Shown here: one piece after another, positions 20,559 to 33,186 of the stretch | How the letters are laid out: each line of letters opens with the position of its first letter | How positions within the stretch are numbered: the stretch's first letter is position 1 | Assembly: GCA_015069605.1 (NCBI GenBank) | Contig: SVII01000001.1 | Coordinates: 72,359 to 136,358 of the forward strand | DNA length: 64,000 nucleotides | Source: Clostridiales bacterium | GTDB lineage: Bacteria > Bacillota > Clostridia > Christensenellales > Borkfalkiaceae | Reading direction: 5' to 3' | Position numbers and translations under genes: made by a program | The notes under the pieces: generated by a model | Told to the model about the DNA's origin: nothing | What the model saw: the letters and a program-made list of their open reading frames with translations, nothing else | Database searches by the model: none

Positions 20559-21041
20559 TTACACCTTTTCCAATAAATAATCGTATAACGTTCTGTAATA
20601 TTCCCCTAAATACTGCGGAGCAACCTCATCCGCCTTGAACATATTAAAACGCTCCGAGGCATTCGTGTACGTGTTCATATAATAATCTCGCACCGCATAG
20701 TAACGATCCGGGTACTCCAACGAATAGTCCACTTCGTATGGCGCGTCCGTCGCTTCCGTTTCCTCCACTTTTGTCGAGAAACGCAAATAAAACAACAACG
20801 CATCGCGCACCGCCTCCACTTCCTGCTCGTATTCCGCCCGCAATTTCGTCTGTATCAACGGCCACATATCCGAAAGCAAAGTACCGTTTTCCACCAAACG
20901 CTCCTTTTCCTTTTGCAAATTCTCTTGCAATTTCGCCGTCAGTCTGTTTTTATCCAACTGCGCTTCTTTCACCTGCAAAATTTGTTCTTCCGTCAATGCC
21001 GCGTATTGTTTATCGGTGTACGTGATAATATCAATTTCCAT
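20559..21041 (-). CDS. hypothetical protein, last gene of phage-head module
   Basis: 160-aa intact ORF co-oriented and compactly placed with head genes. Confidence 0.6.
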   Translation of the reverse strand: MEIDIITYTDKQYAALTEEQILQVKEAQLDKNRLTAKLQENLQKEKERLVENGTLLSDMWPLIQTKLRAEYEQEVEAVRDALLFYLRFSTKVEETEATDAPYEVDYSLEYPDRYYAVRDYYMNTYTNASERFNMFKADEVAPQYLGEYYRTLYDYLLEKV

Positions 21042-21097
21042 ATTCTCCTCCTAACCTTTATCGCGCCCCATTACGGTTCATTTTATCATTTAGACTT

Positions 21098-22459
21098 TTA
21101 AGCCGTGTATGAAATCGCCAACTTTCTAACGATCGCGCCCTTTTTCAAAGTGAAACGTAATGCAAAACTTTCTCCAACAAGCCCCATTCTAACCACTGCT
21201 TTCCCGTCAATAAATTTCACCGCTTTTTGCTTGACGGTTTGTCCATCGTCCACCTGAACAGTCATTTCACCTTCACCCTCAAAACACAACGACTTTAAGT
21301 TCTTTTTACCAACAACCCCAAAATCTAAACATTCCGTTTGAAAGCAATATTCCTCGCCGCCGTACAAATCGCCGTCGCAATCCACGTATTTCACTACCCC
21401 TTCCGCCACGCACATAGCGTATTGATCCGTCCTCGACAAGCCGTTGAGATAGGAACAAAAATACCCACTTTTACCATCTGCCGCAAGCACCAACGTCACC
21501 GCGCCTTTCACCTTGTCTGCATAGCGAATGAGCACTCGATCTCCTACGCACGCCGCGCCGCATTGTACCGAATACATCGGTTTGACGTTCAATTCCTGAC
21601 AAATTTTTTGCAATGTTTTTCCGTCGAATGTATACACCCCATCATCCGCAAGGAAAAACAGCTTTCCGCCGCACTCACAAACGGTTTCACCAAGGACATG
21701 CCCCCCTGCATACGCCAAGGGCACTTGTTTAAAATCACGCGCCGAACCAGCCGGAATTAATCTCGTGATACCATATTCGTAGAAAATGCAAATCTCGTTG
21801 CCGAGTTGTTTCATTGCGACAATCTTCCCCGCCGCTGATGGTAAATGTATCTTACCGCTGTCATCAATTGTACTTTCAAAATTTAACGTTTCCAATGGTT
21901 TGGAATACGCCACGGTAAATGGTTCGATTACAACAAATAAACGATCGTGAAACACACAATTTGCCAAACCCGCCTTCGTCAAAATCGATCGCGTGTATCC
22001 TCTATCAGGATCGTAACGTGTCACGCCAAGCCCACCGATAAACAGAGTTTCCACTTCCAAGTCCGCATTTATGACGCCAACAACGTTCGTTGCACCGCCA
22101 AACACCAACGTTTTCACAAACGCACCCGTTGTATGGTTGTATAAATAATACTTCCCATCCTCCAACATATACCCTAACTGATTGTTATATACTCCGTCCG
22201 AATGTTTTGTTCTATGCAAATAAAACGAACGCACTGCCGCGCTTTCCATTACATACGTTTTCTCATACGGAGTGAGATAATTTTTTAATCCCAACCCCGT
22301 TTTTATTGTTCCGTCCGCGCAATCGCAATTTCTCCCATCTACGCCAAACAGCGTACCCTTTTTATCCCTATCCACGAGGGAAAAATTCTCAAAACGCACT
22401 ACCCGTGTCCGCGCCGAACGTTTTATAGGTTGTTTTTTTACCCCGACCATTACGCCCAC
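21098..22459 (-). CDS. phage neck/hub-like protein, beta-propeller-like (P22 gp10-type by position; tentative)
   Basis: 453-aa repetitive beta-rich sequence (FHDRLFVV.., LFFLADDGVYTFDG); placed after capsid and adaptor genes. Confidence 0.45.
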   Translation of the reverse strand: MGVMVGVKKQPIKRSARTRVVRFENFSLVDRDKKGTLFGVDGRNCDCADGTIKTGLGLKNYLTPYEKTYVMESAAVRSFYLHRTKHSDGVYNNQLGYMLEDGKYYLYNHTTGAFVKTLVFGGATNVVGVINADLEVETLFIGGLGVTRYDPDRGYTRSILTKAGLANCVFHDRLFVVIEPFTVAYSKPLETLNFESTIDDSGKIHLPSAAGKIVAMKQLGNEICIFYEYGITRLIPAGSARDFKQVPLAYAGGHVLGETVCECGGKLFFLADDGVYTFDGKTLQKICQELNVKPMYSVQCGAACVGDRVLIRYADKVKGAVTLVLAADGKSGYFCSYLNGLSRTDQYAMCVAEGVVKYVDCDGDLYGGEEYCFQTECLDFGVVGKKNLKSLCFEGEGEMTVQVDDGQTVKQKAVKFIDGKAVVRMGLVGESFALRFTLKKGAIVRKLAISYTA

Positions 22460-22998
22460 CTTCTCGAACGCATCCTCTCACACGGTTTTGCGTGATACGC
22501 AGCTGCGATCGCCTCTTTGTATTTTTTATCCCATACCGCCGCGTCCTCAAACAAACAGGACGCCGTTGCATATTCCGCCGCCACCCCGTACGTAAACAAT
22601 CGTACCGAAGCCTGCAAAACGTAATCGCTAACCCCGTCGACATTTTTCTTATCCGGCGTGTACGTGTACGTAATTTTCACCTTACCTGCCTGCGTCTTTA
22701 CGTAATCAGGAAAGAGTTTGAATTTCACCGAATTTCCCCACTCATCCGTTACACGCAAAATTCGAACAACGGGTTTTGCCAAACGAGAAAACTCGATCGC
22801 ACCCGTTTCCGAGATCATCTCATCCTCTGCATACAAAGGCAGATAATCCAGTGCCAATTCATTTTCCACTATATTAAAACAATGTAAAAGCAACTCCGTT
22901 TTTTGTCCATCCGTACTTTCGCCGTTGACGTACGCTTGTACTTCTTCCTCAATCCCAAGCACCGTCGCCGCAGACAAAATAATTTCTTTTACCGTCAT
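22450..22998 (-). CDS. head-tail adaptor/connector-like phage protein
   Basis: Helical sequence MTVKEIILSAATVLGIEEEV... with GGAGG upstream, immediately after capsid gene. Confidence 0.5.
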   Translation of the reverse strand: MTVKEIILSAATVLGIEEEVQAYVNGESTDGQKTELLLHCFNIVENELALDYLPLYAEDEMISETGAIEFSRLAKPVVRILRVTDEWGNSVKFKLFPDYVKTQAGKVKITYTYTPDKKNVDGVSDYVLQASVRLFTYGVAAEYATASCLFEDAAVWDKKYKEAIAAAYHAKPCERMRSRRWA

Positions 22999-23036
22999 TT
23001 TTACCTCCTTTTCGCGTTGATCGCATATTTGTAAAA

Positions 23037-23074
23037 GGTACCCGTTATTACGGTTCAACGCGTACACGGGTACC
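23037..23074 (-). terminator. perfect 9-bp-stem hairpin directly after capsid gene (putative attenuator)
   Basis: GGTACCCGT (23037-23045) and ACGGGTACC (23066-23074) with 20-nt loop; minus strand continues TTTTAC. Confidence 0.55.
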
Positions 23075-23106
23075 CCAAACAACTATTTAGACGTCTTCAC
23101 TAAACA

Positions 23107-24282
23107 TTAAGATTCGGTAACGCCATAAATCTTACCCTGACCGCAAGGACGTTCGCAAATGAGTTCCGCATATTTCACAAGCGTCGCGGTATATACAGGT
23201 TTACCAGGCACCTGCTTCAAGATTTTACCGTCTTCGCCTTCCAACCATTGCCAATCGCAAAGCTGATGCAATTTGAAATCGTTGGTATTTAAGAAATACA
23301 TTGTTCCGTTCGTGCAAAATCTATCCGCAATAATGGGAATACCGTGGAAATCCAATGCTTTATAGCCGTGTACGTCCATCGTAGGAAGCGTAACCCCTGC
23401 CGTACGGAAAAATTTCACAATCGAACGTCTTACACCGGGGGAACAAAGAATAACGTTAATTTGACTGCCCGACGTTGCCTCGATTTCGTCGATTGCTTTT
23501 TGAATGATTTCTTCCGTAATCGCACCAAGATCCCCTTTCACATACGGCGTCATATATTGATTACTATTCTTTTCCACGCCGTAAAGATTGTCTACGTCCC
23601 CCGAAAATAATGCTTCAACGCCCGTGATTTCATTTCCCCAACAACCATGCATTGCCGCGTACGCGCCGATGGTAATCGCACCTTCGGGGATGGTAGGGCC
23701 GCCAAACGTAACCGTTCTATTCACTCTATCCACAGCAACTACTTTACGTTTTGTTGCCTCCTCAACGGGTCTTTTAAGCGCGTCGTAAAAATCTACTTCC
23801 ATGCCCTCGATCATCGCTCTAACCGTTTCAAAGGTAAATGTGTTATTTCCACCAACCGCAAGAACTCTACCGATCGTACCCGTACCGTCACTGTATAACA
23901 TTCTACCAAAGTTATACTGCGAATTCTTCAACAAAGACTCCATTTCTTCATTGAGAAGATTGACAAACGAACCTTCATTGTTCGCTGACGCGCGCAATGC
24001 TTTATCGGAAATTTCAATCGTGCCGTAAAGGTTCTTTAACGTCGCCACGAACTGCATGTAATTGCCATCCAACGCCTGAGGAAGATTCCCCGTTTCCGTA
24101 CCCGCGCCAATACCGCCGCTGATACCACTTTTAATCGTTTTTCTGATATCTTTTCCCACCACGTTAGACGTAGTCTGTTGAATCATCGCCATCAAAGGGT
24201 TTGTTTTCATATTTAACGCGTCTTTCACCGCGTCAAGATAATAAGATTTCAATACGCTATCTGCTGTTTGCACTGTTACCAT
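23107..24282 (-). CDS. phage major capsid protein-like
   Basis: 391-aa ORF (NLYGTIEISDKALRASANNEGSFVNLLNEEMESLLKNSQYNFGRMLYSDGTG...) of phage coat type, between scaffold-like and adaptor-like genes. Confidence 0.75.
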   Translation of the reverse strand: MVTVQTADSVLKSYYLDAVKDALNMKTNPLMAMIQQTTSNVVGKDIRKTIKSGISGGIGAGTETGNLPQALDGNYMQFVATLKNLYGTIEISDKALRASANNEGSFVNLLNEEMESLLKNSQYNFGRMLYSDGTGTIGRVLAVGGNNTFTFETVRAMIEGMEVDFYDALKRPVEEATKRKVVAVDRVNRTVTFGGPTIPEGAITIGAYAAMHGCWGNEITGVEALFSGDVDNLYGVEKNSNQYMTPYVKGDLGAITEEIIQKAIDEIEATSGSQINVILCSPGVRRSIVKFFRTAGVTLPTMDVHGYKALDFHGIPIIADRFCTNGTMYFLNTNDFKLHQLCDWQWLEGEDGKILKQVPGKPVYTATLVKYAELICERPCGQGKIYGVTES

Positions 24283-24296
24283 AAATTAATTTCTCC

Positions 24297-25142
24297 TCAC
24301 ATTTGATTATTTGATTTAAAAAATCGAAGTGCCATATCCCCTGCATCTAAAATAGATTTTGCTTTTAACGGAGGCGTAGTCACCACGCCGCTGCCCGCAA
24401 ACGTTACGGGCGCGCCCGTTTTTCCAATCGACGCAAGATATTCTCCAATGATACGCAACCTCGTTTGTTCGTCACAGCTCACCTTTTGATACAGTTCTTC
24501 GGACGAAAGCGCCGTTTCTCCCTTTTCTGCAAACGTACGGACGCCCTCTCCCTGCGTGTTCGTGAAATGGTTTTCACTCGCGTCCTTCGCTTCCGCTTTC
24601 GCCTTCAAACTGCTTTCTTGGGTTGCCGCAACCGTATTTTCACCAACTTCCTTTTCGTTTTCCGAAGATTTTGCATCCACAGCTACAGCCGTTTCCTCTT
24701 CGGACGAACACTCGTTAGCGCCGCTTTCCGCCTTTTGAGCGTAAGCCTCTTCTTTTGTTTCCTCTGCGGGTTCATCCACTTTCGCCTGCGTTTCCACGTT
24801 TCGATTGTTTTCCATATCAAACACAAAACTATCAAACTGCTTCGCCGCCGCCTTTCTCGCCTGCGCATTCTTACGGAGCTTTTCCGCCCCCAACTCACCC
24901 AAACGAGCCTTTTCCATTTCCGAATTTTCCGCCTGCCGTTCCAATTCTTTCAAACGCTGACTTCGTCTTGTAAACTCCGCCTGCAAAGAACTGTAAGCCC
25001 TCGCAAGGGCGTCTACGTCCTTAAACTTCCCCAAAACCGCCGAGGCATCTTCCTTGCGCGCTACCTCTTTCGCCGCATTTTCTACCGTCTCCGTCGCCTC
25101 CGTTGTTTCCGTTTCCGCGTAAACGTTCTCCTTTTCGATCAT
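24297..25142 (-). CDS. phage scaffold-like protein
   Basis: Highly charged coiled-coil-rich Glu/Lys/Ala protein between portal and capsid genes. Confidence 0.6.
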   Translation of the reverse strand: MIEKENVYAETETTEATETVENAAKEVARKEDASAVLGKFKDVDALARAYSSLQAEFTRRSQRLKELERQAENSEMEKARLGELGAEKLRKNAQARKAAAKQFDSFVFDMENNRNVETQAKVDEPAEETKEEAYAQKAESGANECSSEEETAVAVDAKSSENEKEVGENTVAATQESSLKAKAEAKDASENHFTNTQGEGVRTFAEKGETALSSEELYQKVSCDEQTRLRIIGEYLASIGKTGAPVTFAGSGVVTTPPLKAKSILDAGDMALRFFKSNNQM

Positions 25143-25167
25143 ACTTTCTTTCCTCCTATTCTCTCTT

Positions 25168-27054
25168 TTACATTTCCTGTTGTGTTTTCAAAGCCTTTTT
25201 ATGCGCTTTGATGTGAGCCATAAAACGTTTTTTGATTTCCTCTTTATTACGACTTCTCTTAAATTCCGCAGACAAAAGGAATCGAATATGCTCGGAAACG
25301 TGTAAATCGTGGTCGTCGTATTCATCCACCTGCATATCCGCTTCCTTCATATCCAAATTCTCCTCACCTGCTTTCGCGATATGTAACGAAGAAATATCCT
25401 TCGCGTTTTCATAGCTACCAAACCCAAACGCTTCCAAAATACGGTTTTTACTTTCCGCCGTCAATTTTCCATCGTCGTTTGTCAATACGCCAGCTTCAAA
25501 CAATCTTAACAGCGTCGCCTTTTTCTCCGCAGGCGTGGACGTTTCTTGCGATTCAAACTGAATATCGTTCACCGACAAATTTTTCGCATTGAAATAATAC
25601 GCCTGCGCACGTTTGTTTTCCCCCGTCAGCGTCATCAATCTCGCCGTTCCCGCAAATTGACGATACAATCGCAAAATCTGTCTGCCAACCTCTTTCATCG
25701 CTCTTTCAATACTGCAAACGGTAGCCGACAATCTCGACTCGTCCTGCGAAAGCAACAACTGTAACCCCGTCGCGCTAGTGACGCGCATTGGACTGGAATT
25801 TTGCGACAACTCGCTAACACCGCTAATCAACGCAAACTCGTTTTCCAACCATTCTTCCTCATCCTTAAACTCGCTGGGTACGTTACCGCAATCGAGCATT
25901 TCAGGCGCTTTTCCACCCTGTCTATACACAAGAATTTTCCCTGGCAACAAACCTTCTTCCGCCAACTCGTCCGTATCCACCGAACCGTCCTCCACCGTCA
26001 ACACCCCCATCGACAAACGATTCAAAAATTCGTGTTTTCTGTTACGAACGGCATTGTACGCACGCTGCACGGGAATCAAACGATCGACAACGCTGCTCGC
26101 AAAAAACGCACCGGGCAAACGCAAGCAATCCTGTTTCACAAAAGGCAACCCTCTCACGCCGCGTTCCTCGTTGATAAAGGGCAACGGCCCGCGATAAAGT
26201 AATTTTCCACCTGCAACAATTTCCAATCTCCCATCAGGATTTTGCGAATCAGGACGAGTATAACGCTCGATTAAAATCTCACTGTCCTTTACCACCGTCG
26301 ATTTCATACCGCCAAACTCCGAAGGCAGCTTCGCCGCCGACGGTTCACTGTACCCAAAAGACGAAGGAATTTCTCTACCGGGCAACGCCACGCCAAATCT
26401 TTCAAAAATATACCCAACCGACACCGCTTGCGCGTGAATAATACTCGTCACCGCTTCCATATCCTCTGCGTTTAAACGATCAGGAAATATCTCAAACGGC
26501 GACACAGCGGTAACCTGAGTTTCTCCCTCATACACAGGCTCACCAGCCTCGTCAACGCATACCTGCCTGCCACCTTTCTCATCCCAAACGATTTTATAAA
26601 AGGCACTGCCGCACGTTTCCGACCAAATCGTAGCCTTGGAAACCGTCTGTGCGAAATCGATACGTTCCAACGCGTATTTCAAAACGCCCGTCGCAAGTTT
26701 CGCCGCTTGCAAATCCCCATCCTCATCGGAAAACGCACGCACTTTGAGTTCGGGTTTCATCTTTTCCAACTTCGCAATTCTAGAATCGATGGTTGGCGCG
26801 ATATGGTTAAACACTCTTCTCGCCTGCCAGTAAAAACGCTTATCCTCCTCTACAATCCCCCCAAACGGAGAAATATCACAATACTGATTTCCGCTGAAAA
26901 AGTTGATATTCAATAACCAACCGTTTTCCACCGCGCGCCTTTCTTCTCTGCGTTGCAAATAATCCTCCGTCACCTCTTTTGCAAGTTTTTCTTCCTCTCT
27001 CTGTTTGGCTTTTTCCTGTTCTTCTCTTGTCATTTTTTCCTCAAAAAGCTCCAT
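25168..27054 (-). CDS. phage portal protein (podoviral/P22-like type)
   Basis: NHIAPTIDSRIAKLEKMKPELKV..., VSPFEIFPD, RVTSATGLQLLLSQDESRLS; position after terminase. Confidence 0.8.
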   Translation of the reverse strand: MELFEEKMTREEQEKAKQREEEKLAKEVTEDYLQRREERRAVENGWLLNINFFSGNQYCDISPFGGIVEEDKRFYWQARRVFNHIAPTIDSRIAKLEKMKPELKVRAFSDEDGDLQAAKLATGVLKYALERIDFAQTVSKATIWSETCGSAFYKIVWDEKGGRQVCVDEAGEPVYEGETQVTAVSPFEIFPDRLNAEDMEAVTSIIHAQAVSVGYIFERFGVALPGREIPSSFGYSEPSAAKLPSEFGGMKSTVVKDSEILIERYTRPDSQNPDGRLEIVAGGKLLYRGPLPFINEERGVRGLPFVKQDCLRLPGAFFASSVVDRLIPVQRAYNAVRNRKHEFLNRLSMGVLTVEDGSVDTDELAEEGLLPGKILVYRQGGKAPEMLDCGNVPSEFKDEEEWLENEFALISGVSELSQNSSPMRVTSATGLQLLLSQDESRLSATVCSIERAMKEVGRQILRLYRQFAGTARLMTLTGENKRAQAYYFNAKNLSVNDIQFESQETSTPAEKKATLLRLFEAGVLTNDDGKLTAESKNRILEAFGFGSYENAKDISSLHIAKAGEENLDMKEADMQVDEYDDHDLHVSEHIRFLLSAEFKRSRNKEEIKKRFMAHIKAHKKALKTQQEM

Positions 27055-27070
27055 TCCTATCTCCTTTCGC

Positions 27071-27448
27071 CTATTTCTTTTTCGTGCGTTTCACCGCCGC
27101 GCCCGTCTTTGCTTTTACTGTCTTCTTCCGTTCTTCCTTTTCAACGCCTGCCTTACTTTCTTCCAACGCCGCCAGCAGCCTTACGCGTTCTTTTTCAAGT
27201 TCCTCATCCGTCCAAGCCCCGTATTCGTCATTGCCTTCGTTCGCGAGTAGCATCTGCACCGCTTTAAGATCGGGCGGCACGTCCTTTTTCGTCTTTTTAC
27301 GCTTCGTCAGCTTCAATTCCCCATCCACTTCCGCGTATTCTTCCGTGACTTCCGCCACCTGATACCCAAGCGCCACTTTCAAGAGCGCGTCGTTGATTTT
27401 TTCATCCGTCTTCTCTTTCTTTTTTTCGTTTCTTTTTTTCTCGGCCAT
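27071..27448 (-). CDS. small phage protein, terminase-small-subunit-like (tentative)
   Basis: Lys/Glu-rich with VPPDLKAVQMLLANE...WTDEELEKERVRLL motif; next to the large terminase gene. Confidence 0.45.
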   Translation of the reverse strand: MAEKKRNEKKKEKTDEKINDALLKVALGYQVAEVTEEYAEVDGELKLTKRKKTKKDVPPDLKAVQMLLANEGNDEYGAWTDEELEKERVRLLAALEESKAGVEKEERKKTVKAKTGAAVKRTKKK

Positions 27449-27522
27449 GCCTCTTCTTCACCTCTCTCTTTTTTCACTCAACGCATACCTACCCCCTTCC
27501 TTTGAAATAGTTACCCGAAAAT

Positions 27523-28959
27523 TCAGAATTTGATGTTGCCTTGTTTTAACCTTCTTAAACGTTTCTCTTTATCCCGCTGAATTTCCGATTTTGCGCCACT
27601 GCCAAGCGAGCCTTTCGGTCTTGTCATTAAATAATACCGCATCTCATCCAAACTGTGATCATCCGCCTTTCGCGGCGCGTCGCCGCTGCCCCAATAATAT
27701 CCTTTCAACTCCCGAATTAGGTTTACACAACTTTTGAAAATGTAAATATTCGGCAAACCGTTTTTTTGGTTTAAGTAACTCTTGACTCGCGATATACCCG
27801 AAAACAAATCCTTTTCCACGTCGGGATTGACCAAAATCCCCCGTTCGTAAAACAACTCCACAACACTCTTCACACCCGAAAGTGTCCGCTGCTTCGCCGC
27901 GCTGTCAATCAAAGCGCAAATCCTTCCCCTCGAATCCGTTTTCCAACGCAACCTCTCGCAAATCCGCTTAATTGCGTCCGCATGGTAATCAATGTCCCTT
28001 CCTGCCTCAAAGTGTTCATAGACCACGTACACGTTATCGTCAAAATCCACCGCGTACCAATGCGCCGACAAGGGATTGTTCAGTCCTGGGTCAATGGAAA
28101 TGGTATCCTGCCATTCCATAGGTACGTCAAACGGCTCAATCACGTGTATTCCCTCGTCAAATTCCGGATATACCAACCCCTCTGCCGCCGACGCAAACCT
28201 ACCGTATCGCCGAGCCTGCAACGTCCGCTCGTCCATACTGCCCTCCAAGAGCAAAATTTCCTTTTCGTCCAGATAGGGATTATCACTCCATTCCACGAAC
28301 TCATACCACACTTCAGGGTCATTCCGTCTATTGATAAAAATCTCGTTATACACAAACGTCAACCCTTTCAGCGGCGTCATCGTTCCAAACACGTCTCCGC
28401 GCCTATCCATAACACGCATACGGCATTCCCGATAAATATCCTCAGGCGGTTCTTCGTCAAACCACACAAAATCCAACGACGCGCCCTGAAATTTTTCTCG
28501 CCCTTGATCGCAACTTTTAAATCCAATCACCGAGCTCCCACCCAAAGCATTTTTCACACGGATAAAATCAATAATCCCGCTTTCAGGAGAATCCTTTCTA
28601 CCGCTGAGCATCACAATTTCCTCAATCCAATCCCGACGTAAATACCGCAAAATCTTCTTTTGTGCCACGTCGCGCTGTACCTGCAAGGATAGCGATACCA
28701 CCCAGCCACACACGTCTTGCCGATTTTCACGGTACGGATGAATCCCACGAGCCATATACACACACTCCACCGCGCCGCATTCCGTTTTCCCCGAACGGTT
28801 TCCGCCGAATACCCAACGGTTACGCTTTGGACATTTATGAAACGCCAACTGTTTTTCGTGTTTGACTTCGCCCGTGTTGTACGCCGCCAAATGATCGTTT
28901 TCTCTTCTACGCCGCAGTTCCGTTTCGATTTTATATAACTTTTCTACAATTTCTCTCAT
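27523..28959 (-). CDS. phage terminase large subunit
   Basis: FGGNRSGKTECG Walker A, LDFVWFDEEPPEDIYRE Walker B, nuclease-domain Asp motifs (SIDPGLNNPLSAHW). Confidence 0.9.
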   Translation of the reverse strand: MREIVEKLYKIETELRRRRENDHLAAYNTGEVKHEKQLAFHKCPKRNRWVFGGNRSGKTECGAVECVYMARGIHPYRENRQDVCGWVVSLSLQVQRDVAQKKILRYLRRDWIEEIVMLSGRKDSPESGIIDFIRVKNALGGSSVIGFKSCDQGREKFQGASLDFVWFDEEPPEDIYRECRMRVMDRRGDVFGTMTPLKGLTFVYNEIFINRRNDPEVWYEFVEWSDNPYLDEKEILLLEGSMDERTLQARRYGRFASAAEGLVYPEFDEGIHVIEPFDVPMEWQDTISIDPGLNNPLSAHWYAVDFDDNVYVVYEHFEAGRDIDYHADAIKRICERLRWKTDSRGRICALIDSAAKQRTLSGVKSVVELFYERGILVNPDVEKDLFSGISRVKSYLNQKNGLPNIYIFKSCVNLIRELKGYYWGSGDAPRKADDHSLDEMRYYLMTRPKGSLGSGAKSEIQRDKEKRLRRLKQGNIKF

Positions 28960-29118
28960 AAAATTTTAAAATCTCCCACAACACGTCCCCACAACTTCTT
29001 TATAATAGCTTATGTCGCTTTCATCAGCGCCCGCCGTTGCCAAATGCAACAACACACAACGAATACCACAAAAAACTTAGGCAACCACCTTTGACCTCTT
29101 TTCTTAAAGAATTACGCT

Positions 29119-29871
29119 ATGAAAAATTTCAAACTCACTCTTTTTACGTTTATACAAATCCTATTACTGTTGCTTTTGTGCGCACGCCCAACCGCTCTTT
29201 CCAACGCTTTCGACGTTCGATTTGCGCTCGCGGACACTGTTACCGCACAACCGACCGCAGGTTCGTACGCCTGTATTCTTTCGGATACGACGTATTTCTA
29301 TTCCGCGCCCGATCTTCGTCGCGGCGTGTTCGTCCTACCCAAAACCTACTACGTCAAACTGCTTTCCTACGACAGCGATTTTTGCAAGATCGAATACCTC
29401 TACGACGATAACGATTGCCGTAAACTCATCGGCTACGCCCAAACGGATAAACTCACGTTCGTGGATTATATCCCAAACCGCCCGTACTTGTACTACCTTT
29501 TCGACGTACAATATTACATAGACGATACCGCACCGAGCGACTCTTCCTTTTTAAACCAGCTCACCGTCACCTGCGTGTATTACGGCGATTATAAAATCGG
29601 TTCAGAAACCTATTGTTACGTTTTGCGCGGCGAGTCTTTCGGCTATATTCCAAAACCCTCAACCCTTATCTACGAAGAAAACACGGAATACGCCGACCGT
29701 TTCCTATCCACCCTTCCCGACACGCCCACGCAATCCACGCCTTTAGAAGAAGAAAAAAGTTCCTCTCCTGCGCAGATTGCCATTCTCATTACGCTGTGCC
29801 TGCTTGTCCCCATTCTCGCCGCGCTCATCTTAAAACCGCCCCACCGTCCCCCTTACGAAACCAACGAATAG
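29119..29871 (+). CDS. secreted/membrane protein with SH3-like region and C-terminal TM
   Basis: N-terminal signal peptide, C-terminal TM (IAILITLCLLVPILAALIL), GESFGYIPKPS segment. Confidence 0.6.
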   Translation: MKNFKLTLFTFIQILLLLLLCARPTALSNAFDVRFALADTVTAQPTAGSYACILSDTTYFYSAPDLRRGVFVLPKTYYVKLLSYDSDFCKIEYLYDDNDCRKLIGYAQTDKLTFVDYIPNRPYLYYLFDVQYYIDDTAPSDSSFLNQLTVTCVYYGDYKIGSETYCYVLRGESFGYIPKPSTLIYEENTEYADRFLSTLPDTPTQSTPLEEEKSSSPAQIAILITLCLLVPILAALILKPPHRPPYETNE

Positions 29872-29872
29872 C

Positions 29873-30388
29873 TCAGCGTATCCAACGCCGCTCGTCCTGC
29901 GACACCTTTCGATCCTTCCCCTCGTGAACAAACGTATGTATCTTTGCAAAAATCTCCAAAGTGGCGTAATCACGTAAATAGATATCCTCAGTAATCCCCG
30001 CGCTTTTCAGCATAGCCCCTACTTTTTCGGACAATCGTTGCTGACGTCGAAAATACGCACGCTCTCCTCTCGCGGAATCCACCAAAGGATTTTTCTCCGA
30101 AGTAAACCGAAATTTCTTAATCTTTCGCTTTTTTCCAAAATATCGAATGGAAACCAACGTCCTCTCCACGTCGTCCAACCTTGCCAATACCTCTTCAATT
30201 TTCCCTTTCAGCCATTCCAGCTTTCGTTTACGGAGAATTTCCTCCGCCAGATATTCCGCCAACTTTTCCGTCGAAAGCGAACTGTCATACGATAACAACG
30301 CCTTATTTTTAATATGTTCCGCGTAATCCTCGCCAACCGTTTTCAACATCGGATACGCATACAGCACCACTTTTGTATAATTCTCCAA
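29873..30388 (-). CDS. ArpU/RinA-like phage transcriptional regulator (sigma region-4-like; tentative)
   Basis: DVERTLVSIRYFGKKRKIKKF...ERAYFRRQQRLSEKVGAMLKS resembles the HTH of late-gene activators; upstream of head genes. Confidence 0.45.
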   Translation of the reverse strand: MENYTKVVLYAYPMLKTVGEDYAEHIKNKALLSYDSSLSTEKLAEYLAEEILRKRKLEWLKGKIEEVLARLDDVERTLVSIRYFGKKRKIKKFRFTSEKNPLVDSARGERAYFRRQQRLSEKVGAMLKSAGITEDIYLRDYATLEIFAKIHTFVHEGKDRKVSQDERRWIR

Positions 30389-30496: not shown

Positions 30497-30510
30497 CGAA
30501 CATTTGTTCG
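30497..30510. promoter_or_regulatory. LexA (SOS) box
   Basis: CGAACATTTGTTCG matches the Gram-positive LexA operator (CGAAC-N4-GTTCG); 109 bp upstream of the start of the 171-aa regulator. Confidence 0.75.
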
Positions 30511-30729
30511 CTTTTTATATGTTTTTATGTTTTAATTATGACATATGTATGCCTATATAAAAACAATCGACAAAAATCGACTTTTTTCGCATTTTTGAGC
30601 CAAAAAATACATATAGGCTTGACGTAGTCAAGCCGCGTTCAAAAAGAGAAGAAAAACCTTTTCAAGTCAAGCGAAAAATTTCACCGAAAACATTGCTTTT
30701 TTCTTAAAAAGGTGTTATAATAAAAACGT

Positions 30730-33186
30730 ATGAGAAAAATTGCGAGAACAATTTTATTCCTTTGTCTTGCCACCGCGTTCGTTATGCCGAAAAGCGCGGG
30801 TTTTTGCGTACAAGAAAAAAACGCCCAAGCGGACGGCGCAAAACATTCTTTCACGGCGCAAACGGACAATGAAAAAACGGAACTTGTTTCCCCCTCGTCC
30901 TATCGTCAGTATTTGTCGTTGAACGATCCGTCTGACGTAGCGGTTTCAGAGGATTACACGGCAATCGCAGACGGAAACATAATCTACGTATATGACGAAG
31001 CGGAAGAAACGTATTTGCAATACGAACACGACAAAAACGCCGAAAGTTCGTATAACAAAGTGACAAAATTGCAATTCGACGCCACGGGAAATTTGTATTT
31101 CCTCGACGCATCCACGCATTTGTACGTACTCGATCCCACTACTGTGGACGAAGACGGTGAGGCTGCGGACACACAATTTACTTGCAGTACGTTTGCTATT
31201 CATGACGAAACGTTGTATTTCACCAACGTCACAACGCAAACTCCGCTTTCCAAAGTCGCCCTCTCCTCTCCCGACATCAGCAAAGCAACGACGCTGGTGG
31301 ATAAATTATCTTCCAAACCGACGATTACGTTTTGGGAAGACGAGCTGTACTATACGGACGGCGGAAAATATTTGAATAAAATCAATCCCTATGACGAAAA
31401 GCCCACACCCGTATTTCTCGCGGCATTCCCTGCCGAAATCGTGTCTATGACTATGTACGGCGGCAGCTTTTTCGCCTCGGATATCGACGGCAACTTTTTC
31501 GCTTATAATTTATCCGAATTGACGGAAACGGCGTCGGCGGACAAACTCATCCCCACGCATTTTTCCTCAGGCGGATATTCTTCCCTTTCCAAGTTCGGAA
31601 ACGAAATCTATGCCGTAAAAAATCATACGATTAAACAATACTCTATCGACGCCGTAGCTTTTACCGATTTTGAAATCGGCAACGCGTCGGATGCCATCAA
31701 CCGTTTAGACGGAGCGACGGACGTTTGCCTTTCAGGGCATAAACTGTTTATTGCAGATGAAAACAACGCTCGAATTTCTGTGTACGACACCACTACGCAA
31801 ACGTTTGATGCGCCCATTTCCACAACCATGTCCCCTGCGTTTATGACCTCGGACGGTGCAACGTTGCTTTTGGGTAACGAAGCCGCCGTCGCTTTATACG
31901 ACCTGTCCGCAGAAAATTACGGCAACGAACTGTTGACGGAAAAACATTTCAGCGGCGACGTGGCAGGCGCGGCTTGCGTGTACGGAACGTATTATATCCT
32001 CACCGAGCGCGGCTATTTTTATCAACTGACAAACGCCGAGGGAACGAGTGAATGGACGATTACGCAAACGCAAAAATCCTTGACGAAAACTCCTCGGTTA
32101 TTGACGTCAGATGCTTACGGGAATTTGTACGTAGCGTTCGATAACAACTCCGTATTTTGTTACAGCGAAGAAGAATTTATGATGCCTGCGGCAACGGGAA
32201 AGGAAATTTTAGAAACTCTGCCCGCGCAAACAAAAAAATTGGCGGTAGATTACCGCGGTAATTTGTACGCATTTGCGGAAAACGCTTTGCATAAATTCAC
32301 AAAAGCCGAAAACGGCGACCACGTAGAAAATACAAGCTATTCTTTGGACGGCGAATACGTGTACCAAACGCAAGCGATTGCAAAATCTTTCGCTTTCGGC
32401 ATCGAAGAAAACGCAACCTACGTGTTATACGAAGGCAATTATTTAATCAAGAGCGCAGCGCTTGAGCTTCCCACAGTAAAAAACATCCCTGTCAACAGCG
32501 CAGACGAATACATTTTCAGCGCGGAAAGCGCGGAATTTTCCGTTGTCAAAACCAAGCCCAACGCTCTGATTGTGGAATTTGACATCAACGCCTTGCAGGG
32601 CGCAACCGAATTCCCTTATCTCGCTTTTGAACGTAGTGAAACGCCGAAAACGGCTTTGCAGATTGGACAAACGGACGAATACAACATTCTCGCCGTGTTT
32701 GACGAAACGAAGAAACAATACTCCACCTATCTTGTCGAAACGGAGTATTGTGAAAGCTATCCTGATGAAGAATACCGCACGCAGTACGCGGAAGAAAATC
32801 GCGTAGCGGCGTATCTTATTAACGATATTCCCTTGTACAAATTCCCCTATTTAACTTCCCTTTTGACCGTTTGCAATATGCCGCGCGGAACGGAAGTGAC
32901 GTTGCTTGGAGAGATTGATAAACTTGACCACGCCTATTATCAAGTCGCCTATACAGACGAGAATGGGGAAATCAAAACGGGGTACATTCCCAAAGTCTAT
33001 GTAACGCTTTTCAACGGCGAACCGCAACCCGAAACCATTGTTTTGGGTGAAACGGAAAGCGACCACGATGCCTTGTGGCGTTGTGCATATATTTTACTTG
33101 GGTTAGGCGCAATTTGTATTTTAGTCGATTATCTATTGCTTCGAAAACCCAAAAACGACGACGATAACAACGCCCCCACCGCTTAA
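30730..33186 (+). CDS. membrane-anchored extracellular beta-propeller-like protein with SH3-like C-terminus
   Basis: Signal peptide, repeated NHL/propeller-like blades (FDATGNLYFLD, DAYGNLYVAFD, DYRGNLYAFAE), C-terminal TM. Confidence 0.65.
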   Translation: MRKIARTILFLCLATAFVMPKSAGFCVQEKNAQADGAKHSFTAQTDNEKTELVSPSSYRQYLSLNDPSDVAVSEDYTAIADGNIIYVYDEAEETYLQYEHDKNAESSYNKVTKLQFDATGNLYFLDASTHLYVLDPTTVDEDGEAADTQFTCSTFAIHDETLYFTNVTTQTPLSKVALSSPDISKATTLVDKLSSKPTITFWEDELYYTDGGKYLNKINPYDEKPTPVFLAAFPAEIVSMTMYGGSFFASDIDGNFFAYNLSELTETASADKLIPTHFSSGGYSSLSKFGNEIYAVKNHTIKQYSIDAVAFTDFEIGNASDAINRLDGATDVCLSGHKLFIADENNARISVYDTTTQTFDAPISTTMSPAFMTSDGATLLLGNEAAVALYDLSAENYGNELLTEKHFSGDVAGAACVYGTYYILTERGYFYQLTNAEGTSEWTITQTQKSLTKTPRLLTSDAYGNLYVAFDNNSVFCYSEEEFMMPAATGKEILETLPAQTKKLAVDYRGNLYAFAENALHKFTKAENGDHVENTSYSLDGEYVYQTQAIAKSFAFGIEENATYVLYEGNYLIKSAALELPTVKNIPVNSADEYIFSAESAEFSVVKTKPNALIVEFDINALQGATEFPYLAFERSETPKTALQIGQTDEYNILAVFDETKKQYSTYLVETEYCESYPDEEYRTQYAEENRVAAYLINDIPLYKFPYLTSLLTVCNMPRGTEVTLLGEIDKLDHAYYQVAYTDENGEIKTGYIPKVYVTLFNGEPQPETIVLGETESDHDALWRCAYILLGLGAICILVDYLLLRKPKNDDDNNAPTA

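Follow-up and report, generated by a model that had tools for sequence, protein, structure and literature searches.

A conserved SOS-type palindrome as a probable LexA operator of a gene-transfer-agent-like phage-particle module in gut Clostridia

The analysis of a 64,000-nucleotide stretch of a Clostridiales genome (the window) points to the palindrome at 30497-30510, CGAACATTTGTTCG, as very likely a genuine operator for LexA in this clade, through which LexA would repress a gene-transfer-agent (GTA)-like phage-particle module until DNA is damaged. In an undamaged cell, LexA seated on the box would block transcription of the module to its left, while damage would lead through RecA filaments to self-cleavage of LexA and to expression of the module. 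Since a LexA box stands at the module promoter, phage-like particles are probably made upon DNA damage by these gut Clostridia. What the sequences show directly is that the box is conserved, that lexA and SOS genes carry it too, and which genes the module holds and in what synteny; LexA binding, damage induction, particle production and DNA transfer are steps that we infer from them.

The palindrome is the sole exact CGAAC-N4-GTTCG found by scanning the window, and the match to the Gram-positive LexA operator reported by a first-pass annotation is thus present. Annotated as a predicted SOS box without strand, it reads CGAACAAATGTTCG towards the module, and its end lies 108 bp upstream of the TTG start (30388) of a minus-strand gene for a 171-aa protein, which begins where it had been placed. 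The bare motif is not beyond chance in the window, where 37 sites were observed at up to two mismatches vs 44 expected, or in the whole assembly, where 3 palindromic sites compare with 9 for a reversed control pattern. The box is significant because it is conserved across orthologs and not because of motif frequency.

Conservation was investigated by scanning genomes with the terminase, which yielded 80 loci in Clostridia metagenome-assembled genomes (MAGs), mostly from ruminant, rabbit and chicken gut and including Candidatus Borkfalkia and Candidatus Gallimonas. Conservation in orthologous loci had been set beforehand as a refutation test, and the box proved strongly conserved: a perfect CRAACANAYGTTYG occurs in 58 of 74 regions upstream of the 171-aa gene against 0.05 expected from dinucleotide shuffles, and 8 further regions carry it with one mismatch. 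The strict CGAAC-N4-GTTCG form is found in 34 of the 74 (0.05 expected by the same shuffles). The box reaches far outside the genus, to terminase identities of ~70%, and many LexA-positive relatives outside the family are without it. An RNA hairpin instead of a DNA operator was rejected because many orthologs carry CAAAC...GTTCG, which breaks the stem. That LexA and the box were lost together beyond the family was also considered and dropped, as box-like sites in 0/7 LexA-negative vs 3/8 LexA-positive genomes are too few, and some of the sites in these 3 genomes sit far from the expected place.

The identity of the regulator was examined through the other places at which the motif occurs. In 151 relatives, few places carry the AT-centred box repeatedly; at the genus level these are the module and a site ~200 bp ahead of mraZ, joined in some genus genomes by a RecD2-like helicase, a TtcA/TilS-like gene, mobile-element genes and others. 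At the lexA promoter, AAACATTTGTTTG lies over the -35 in 9/9 genus loci, with CAAACAAATGTTTA at lexA in 6/6 near-complete genomes, and the identity of the genus LexA protein is given by TIGR00498 (211 bits) and by structural matches to LexA structures in the PDB. The window's own assembly carries the motif, with no more than a single mismatch, before an rSAM_link_UDG repair gene (CGAACAAATGTTTG), the RecD2-like helicase (TAAACAAATGTTCG) and uvrB (CAAACGAATGTTTG, directly after the -10). Published Gram-positive boxes follow GAAC-N4-GTTC, with GAAC....GTTT at lexA and recA of C. difficile (PMC4234289). As the motif occurs also at lexA, uvrB, rSAM and helicase genes and fits these published boxes, the palindrome is the predicted SOS box of this clade, and it is very probably bound by LexA. 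Placement of recA under such a box was not found in two scans, the first of which mostly missed the recA start.

Two further settings of the box were observed. A perfect SOS-type box lies ~200 bp upstream of the mraZ-mraW cell-division cluster in many genus members (for example L163:5001-5014; further loci L151-L155, L157, L158, L160, L164, L166, L170 and L173-L175), where it abuts or overlaps a racemase-like gene at the 3' end of that gene. Relatives have the box also within phage-like regions or mobile elements (L147, L159, L171), where it directly follows a -10 and has a sigma-like gene or integrases as neighbours.

The promoter architecture was compared over 63 distinct upstream sequences, chosen for a box that departs from the motif by no more than one mismatch. 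In most orthologs, a promoter termed P1 has an extended -10 (TGnTATnAT) 5-12 bp before the box, on its upstream side, and no -35. At this distance the box covers the predicted P1 start site, which is where a repressor would usually sit. The window copy has an intact box and an intact dyad op2, described below, but its P1 -10 is degenerate, a remnant TAAAAA (30522-30527, minus strand; 4/6 match) set 12 bp from op2 as in the orthologs, so control is less certain there; the element is degenerate also in loci L034 and L036. A further -10 candidate of the window copy, TATAAA, is at 30514-30519. The promoter proposed earlier between box and gene, here P2, was found as described, with its -35 TTGCAA at 30465-30460 and its -10 TAATAA at 30443-30438 on the minus strand, separated by a 16-bp spacer. 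A similar -35 element occurs in most close orthologs and P2 counterparts are present in close relatives, but they are not evident in more distant orthologs, and the most conserved promoter is P1, upstream of the box. The box lies ~72 bp upstream of the expected P2 start, and a repressor would not classically act from there.

Where P1 would have its -35 stands a putative second operator, op2 (GGCATACATATGTC, 30540-30553, minus strand), a conserved dyad with consensus GGCA-N6-TGYC that rimO-recA promoters share and whose half-sites recur at a gene for a WYL-domain regulator. It lies 12-13 bp before the -10 in 46 of the 63 distinct upstream sequences, with no canonical -35. When 151 genomes were searched for dyad plus -10, the combination was found at the module and before rimO, ~3 kb upstream of recA, and full half-sites are present in 15/25 distinct rimO upstream sequences. 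Loci at which the dyad and an extended -10 precede rimO include L260-L263, L267, L269, L273, L282 and L283. The WYL regulator (HTH_11-WYL-WCX) is encoded in 52/57 genus genomes, the window's genome included, and its promoter carries G[AG]CA-N5/6-TG[CT]C in 8/8 distinct loci with a recovered start. In the window's own genome (L299:4436-5362) and in L290, L291, L293, L294, L296, L304 and L306, this GRCA-N5/6-TGYC dyad overlaps the -35 of the WYL gene itself, which suggests that the gene is under self-control.

Because op2 also stands before rimO-recA and has half-sites at the WYL regulator gene, it suggests a second DNA-damage input, which would act through the WYL protein if that protein is indeed what reads op2. 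We entertain only tentatively, and with more doubt than confidence, the wider proposal of an undescribed, family-wide GTA lineage of gut Clostridia whose promoter joins the site of a WYL-type (PafBC/DriD-like, ssDNA-sensing) activator and a LexA box as independent damage inputs. A candidate tail-fibre locus beside the WYL gene was discarded, as the matching protein consists of collagen-like repeats and, in several genomes, a TyrRS-like gene is the divergent neighbour. Genes for collagen-like GxY repeat, lipoprotein-like proteins lie near the WYL gene at L300:4009-6000 and L306:4629-4985, and their tail-fibre matches are misleading.

The module (20559-30388) combines a P22-like terminase-portal-capsid set with a short-tail nozzle, and all of its genes lie on the minus strand. 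Its first gene (29873-30388) encodes the 171-aa protein, which resembles phage transcription regulators (sigma region 4-like) by weak homology (phrog_36 in 19/40 members, phrog_248 in 12/40) and whose structure model is helical, with no PDB match. Next come the terminase large subunit, TerL (27523-28959; Pfam Terminase_6N, phrog_2 at 1.3e-31), the terminase small subunit (27071-27448; phrog_309, 1e-6) and a P22/SU10-like portal protein (25168-27054; PF16510 at 2.4e-18, phrog_156 at 6e-36). A probable scaffold protein (24297-25142) is assigned from position and charged composition and a probable head-tail adaptor (22450-23082) from position, both with no family match, and between them lies the major capsid protein (23107-24282; phrog_14242 at 1.3e-43, SU10_MCP). 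The module, earlier described as a phage-head or capsid module, is more than that, for it also includes the 453-aa short-tail nozzle protein (21098-22459), whose AlphaFold2 model (pLDDT 93) has podovirus tail proteins as its best Foldseek matches in the PDB, namely Pa223 (9nwi, 1.3e-18) and P22 gp10 (8eap, 4.5e-13). The last gene (20559-21041) encodes 160 aa and has no family match; it is co-conserved with the module.

Judged by copy number, selection, neighbourhood and gene content, the module is most likely a GTA-like relic, an ancient, inherited and domesticated podoviral particle set, rather than an ordinary or inducible prophage. The capsid gene is present in 54/57 genus genomes and 114/151 relatives, nearly always in single copy and with no stop codons, and open reading frames are intact in more than 100 relatives of an order. 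Values of dN/dS are ~0.03-0.17 for TerL and portal in most close pairs; purifying selection is clear for these two and weaker for the capsid gene. The module is flanked by housekeeping genes, and the closest phages are remote, with a capsid identity of 28% at best. Neither integration or replication genes nor fibre or lysis genes were seen among the module and neighbouring window proteins scanned, in agreement with the earlier remark that no integrase is encoded among the window proteins. The earlier link of the capsid module to DNA damage is supported, as the box is conserved and has the SOS motif, but the comparison with prophage induction is probably mistaken, because the module is single-copy, in a conserved place and without an integrase among the proteins scanned. 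A divergent, beta-propeller-like neighbour is kept beside the module in 57/62 loci. In the window this neighbour (30730-33186) has 818 aa; its start resembles a signal peptide, and its match to a beta-propeller is weak.

The window's own MAG is 84% complete, and profile and protein searches found no LexA in it; RecA was likewise not found, and the orthologous mraW is absent, the assembly offering only a 36%-identical MraW-like protein. Of the genus genomes with a completeness of 90% or more, nearly all encode LexA (exception seen, G021), and recA is present in 12/12 of those whose contamination is also no higher than 5%. In G022 and G016, a single contig holds the mraZ box, recA and lexA within ~92 and ~64 kb, respectively. 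The simplest reading of the own assembly, which looks like one with a missing block, is that lexA is absent probably because the assembly is incomplete. The objection that the box is meaningless for want of LexA was dropped, given LexA across the genus and the joint absence of lexA, recA and orthologous mraW here. Since the assembly has no lexA and the P1 -10 is degenerate, damage-dependence in the window's own genome is something we infer.

Several other explanations were weighed against LexA control of a GTA-like module. That the palindrome is a chance match would agree with a bare motif no commoner than expected in window or genome, but this has practically no probability left, being ruled out by a conservation far above the shuffled expectation and by a place fixed relative to the P1 -10. 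It is quite improbable that a regulator other than LexA binds the conserved palindrome. Such a regulator would suit the single orientation of the box to the gene at the module, mraZ, the helicase and the TtcA/TilS-like gene, when a symmetric dimer needs none, as well as a recA without a box and a 98% complete genome (G061) with a perfect box and no LexA match; against it stand the motif over the lexA -35 in 9/9 genus loci and directly after the uvrB -10, and its fit to GAAC-N4-GTTC and to the GAAC....GTTT variants of C. difficile (PMC4234289).

A more serious contender, unlikely as we hold it to be, accepts a true clade LexA operator and lets P2 drive the module here with little or no damage control. 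The degenerate P1 -10 in the window copy, L034 and L036 speaks for it, as do the retained P2 elements and a box placed likewise upstream of a TTGCAA -35 at the helicase and TtcA-like genes. Against this, the box is perfect in the window copy, from which selection on it seems to continue, and an upstream LexA may still affect P2. There is also a small chance that the module is a decaying remnant of an ordinary LexA-induced prophage and not a maintained GTA-like system. Boxes directly after a -10 in the clade's mobile elements noted above, and a module beside which the scanned proteins included neither fibre nor lysis functions, would suit such a remnant, but the reading frames intact across an order, the purifying selection, the conserved divergent neighbour and the lack of any close phage relative all argue for maintenance. 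LexA control of a GTA-like module is the favoured reading.

If it is true, damage, antibiotic damage included, would be tied to particle release and possibly to gene exchange in abundant uncultured gut Clostridia. That op2 is common to the module and the recA operon hints at a possible coordination of particle production with the capacity for recombination. Prophages under SOS control are familiar, and LexA also influences alphaproteobacterial GTAs, there indirectly; a direct, family-conserved SOS box at a GTA structural operon was not found in the limited open-access set of papers that was searched.

The SOS promoters that LexA controls in Bacillus and Clostridium are alike in box sequence, in lexA and uvrB as targets and in a box position over the start or the -35 (PMC4234289). 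They differ in that the target here is a conserved phage-particle module and recA is without a box. With regard to op2, mycobacterial PafBC is an ssDNA-sensing WYL activator that uses an element at -26 where no -35 is present (PMC11804915), and some PafBC targets, recA among them, also carry SOS boxes (PMC8223512). PafBC/RecA-NDp promoters thus share a TGTC element near -26, the want of a proper -35, a WYL-family regulator and a link to recA (PMC8223512, PMC11804915), whereas the element here is the dyad GGCA-N6-TGYC and the candidate regulator a single HTH-WYL-WCX protein.

Among phage-derived systems, PBSX of Bacillus subtilis is likewise a defective phage-like element, and it packages host DNA. 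It is governed by a repressor of its own and carries a long tail of contractile type, unlike the module here with its short-tail nozzle. PBSX was induced with mitomycin in one study (PMC12946183). Another comparable system is FpGTA of Faecalibacterium prausnitzii, reported in 2026, a ~10 kb podovirus-like capsid-portal operon of gut Clostridia that is near-ubiquitous in its genus and stands apart from complete phage (PMC12946183). FpGTA has been shown to form particles, to package DNA and to depend on a second operon with fibre and lysis genes as part of the system (PMC12946183), while the module here is known from its sequence and no second operon was found. Of the alphaproteobacterial agents, RcGTA is affected by LexA through CckA (PMC6363796), and the activators of CcGTA are repressed by the LexA-like RogA; the WYL protein DriD responds to CcGTA packaging and is not required for its benefit (PMC9632790). 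Both are, like the present module as interpreted here, domesticated phage genes under host regulators (PMC6363796, PMC9632790), but LexA or RogA acts on them indirectly, via activator genes, whereas the predicted LexA box described here stands directly at the structural operon.
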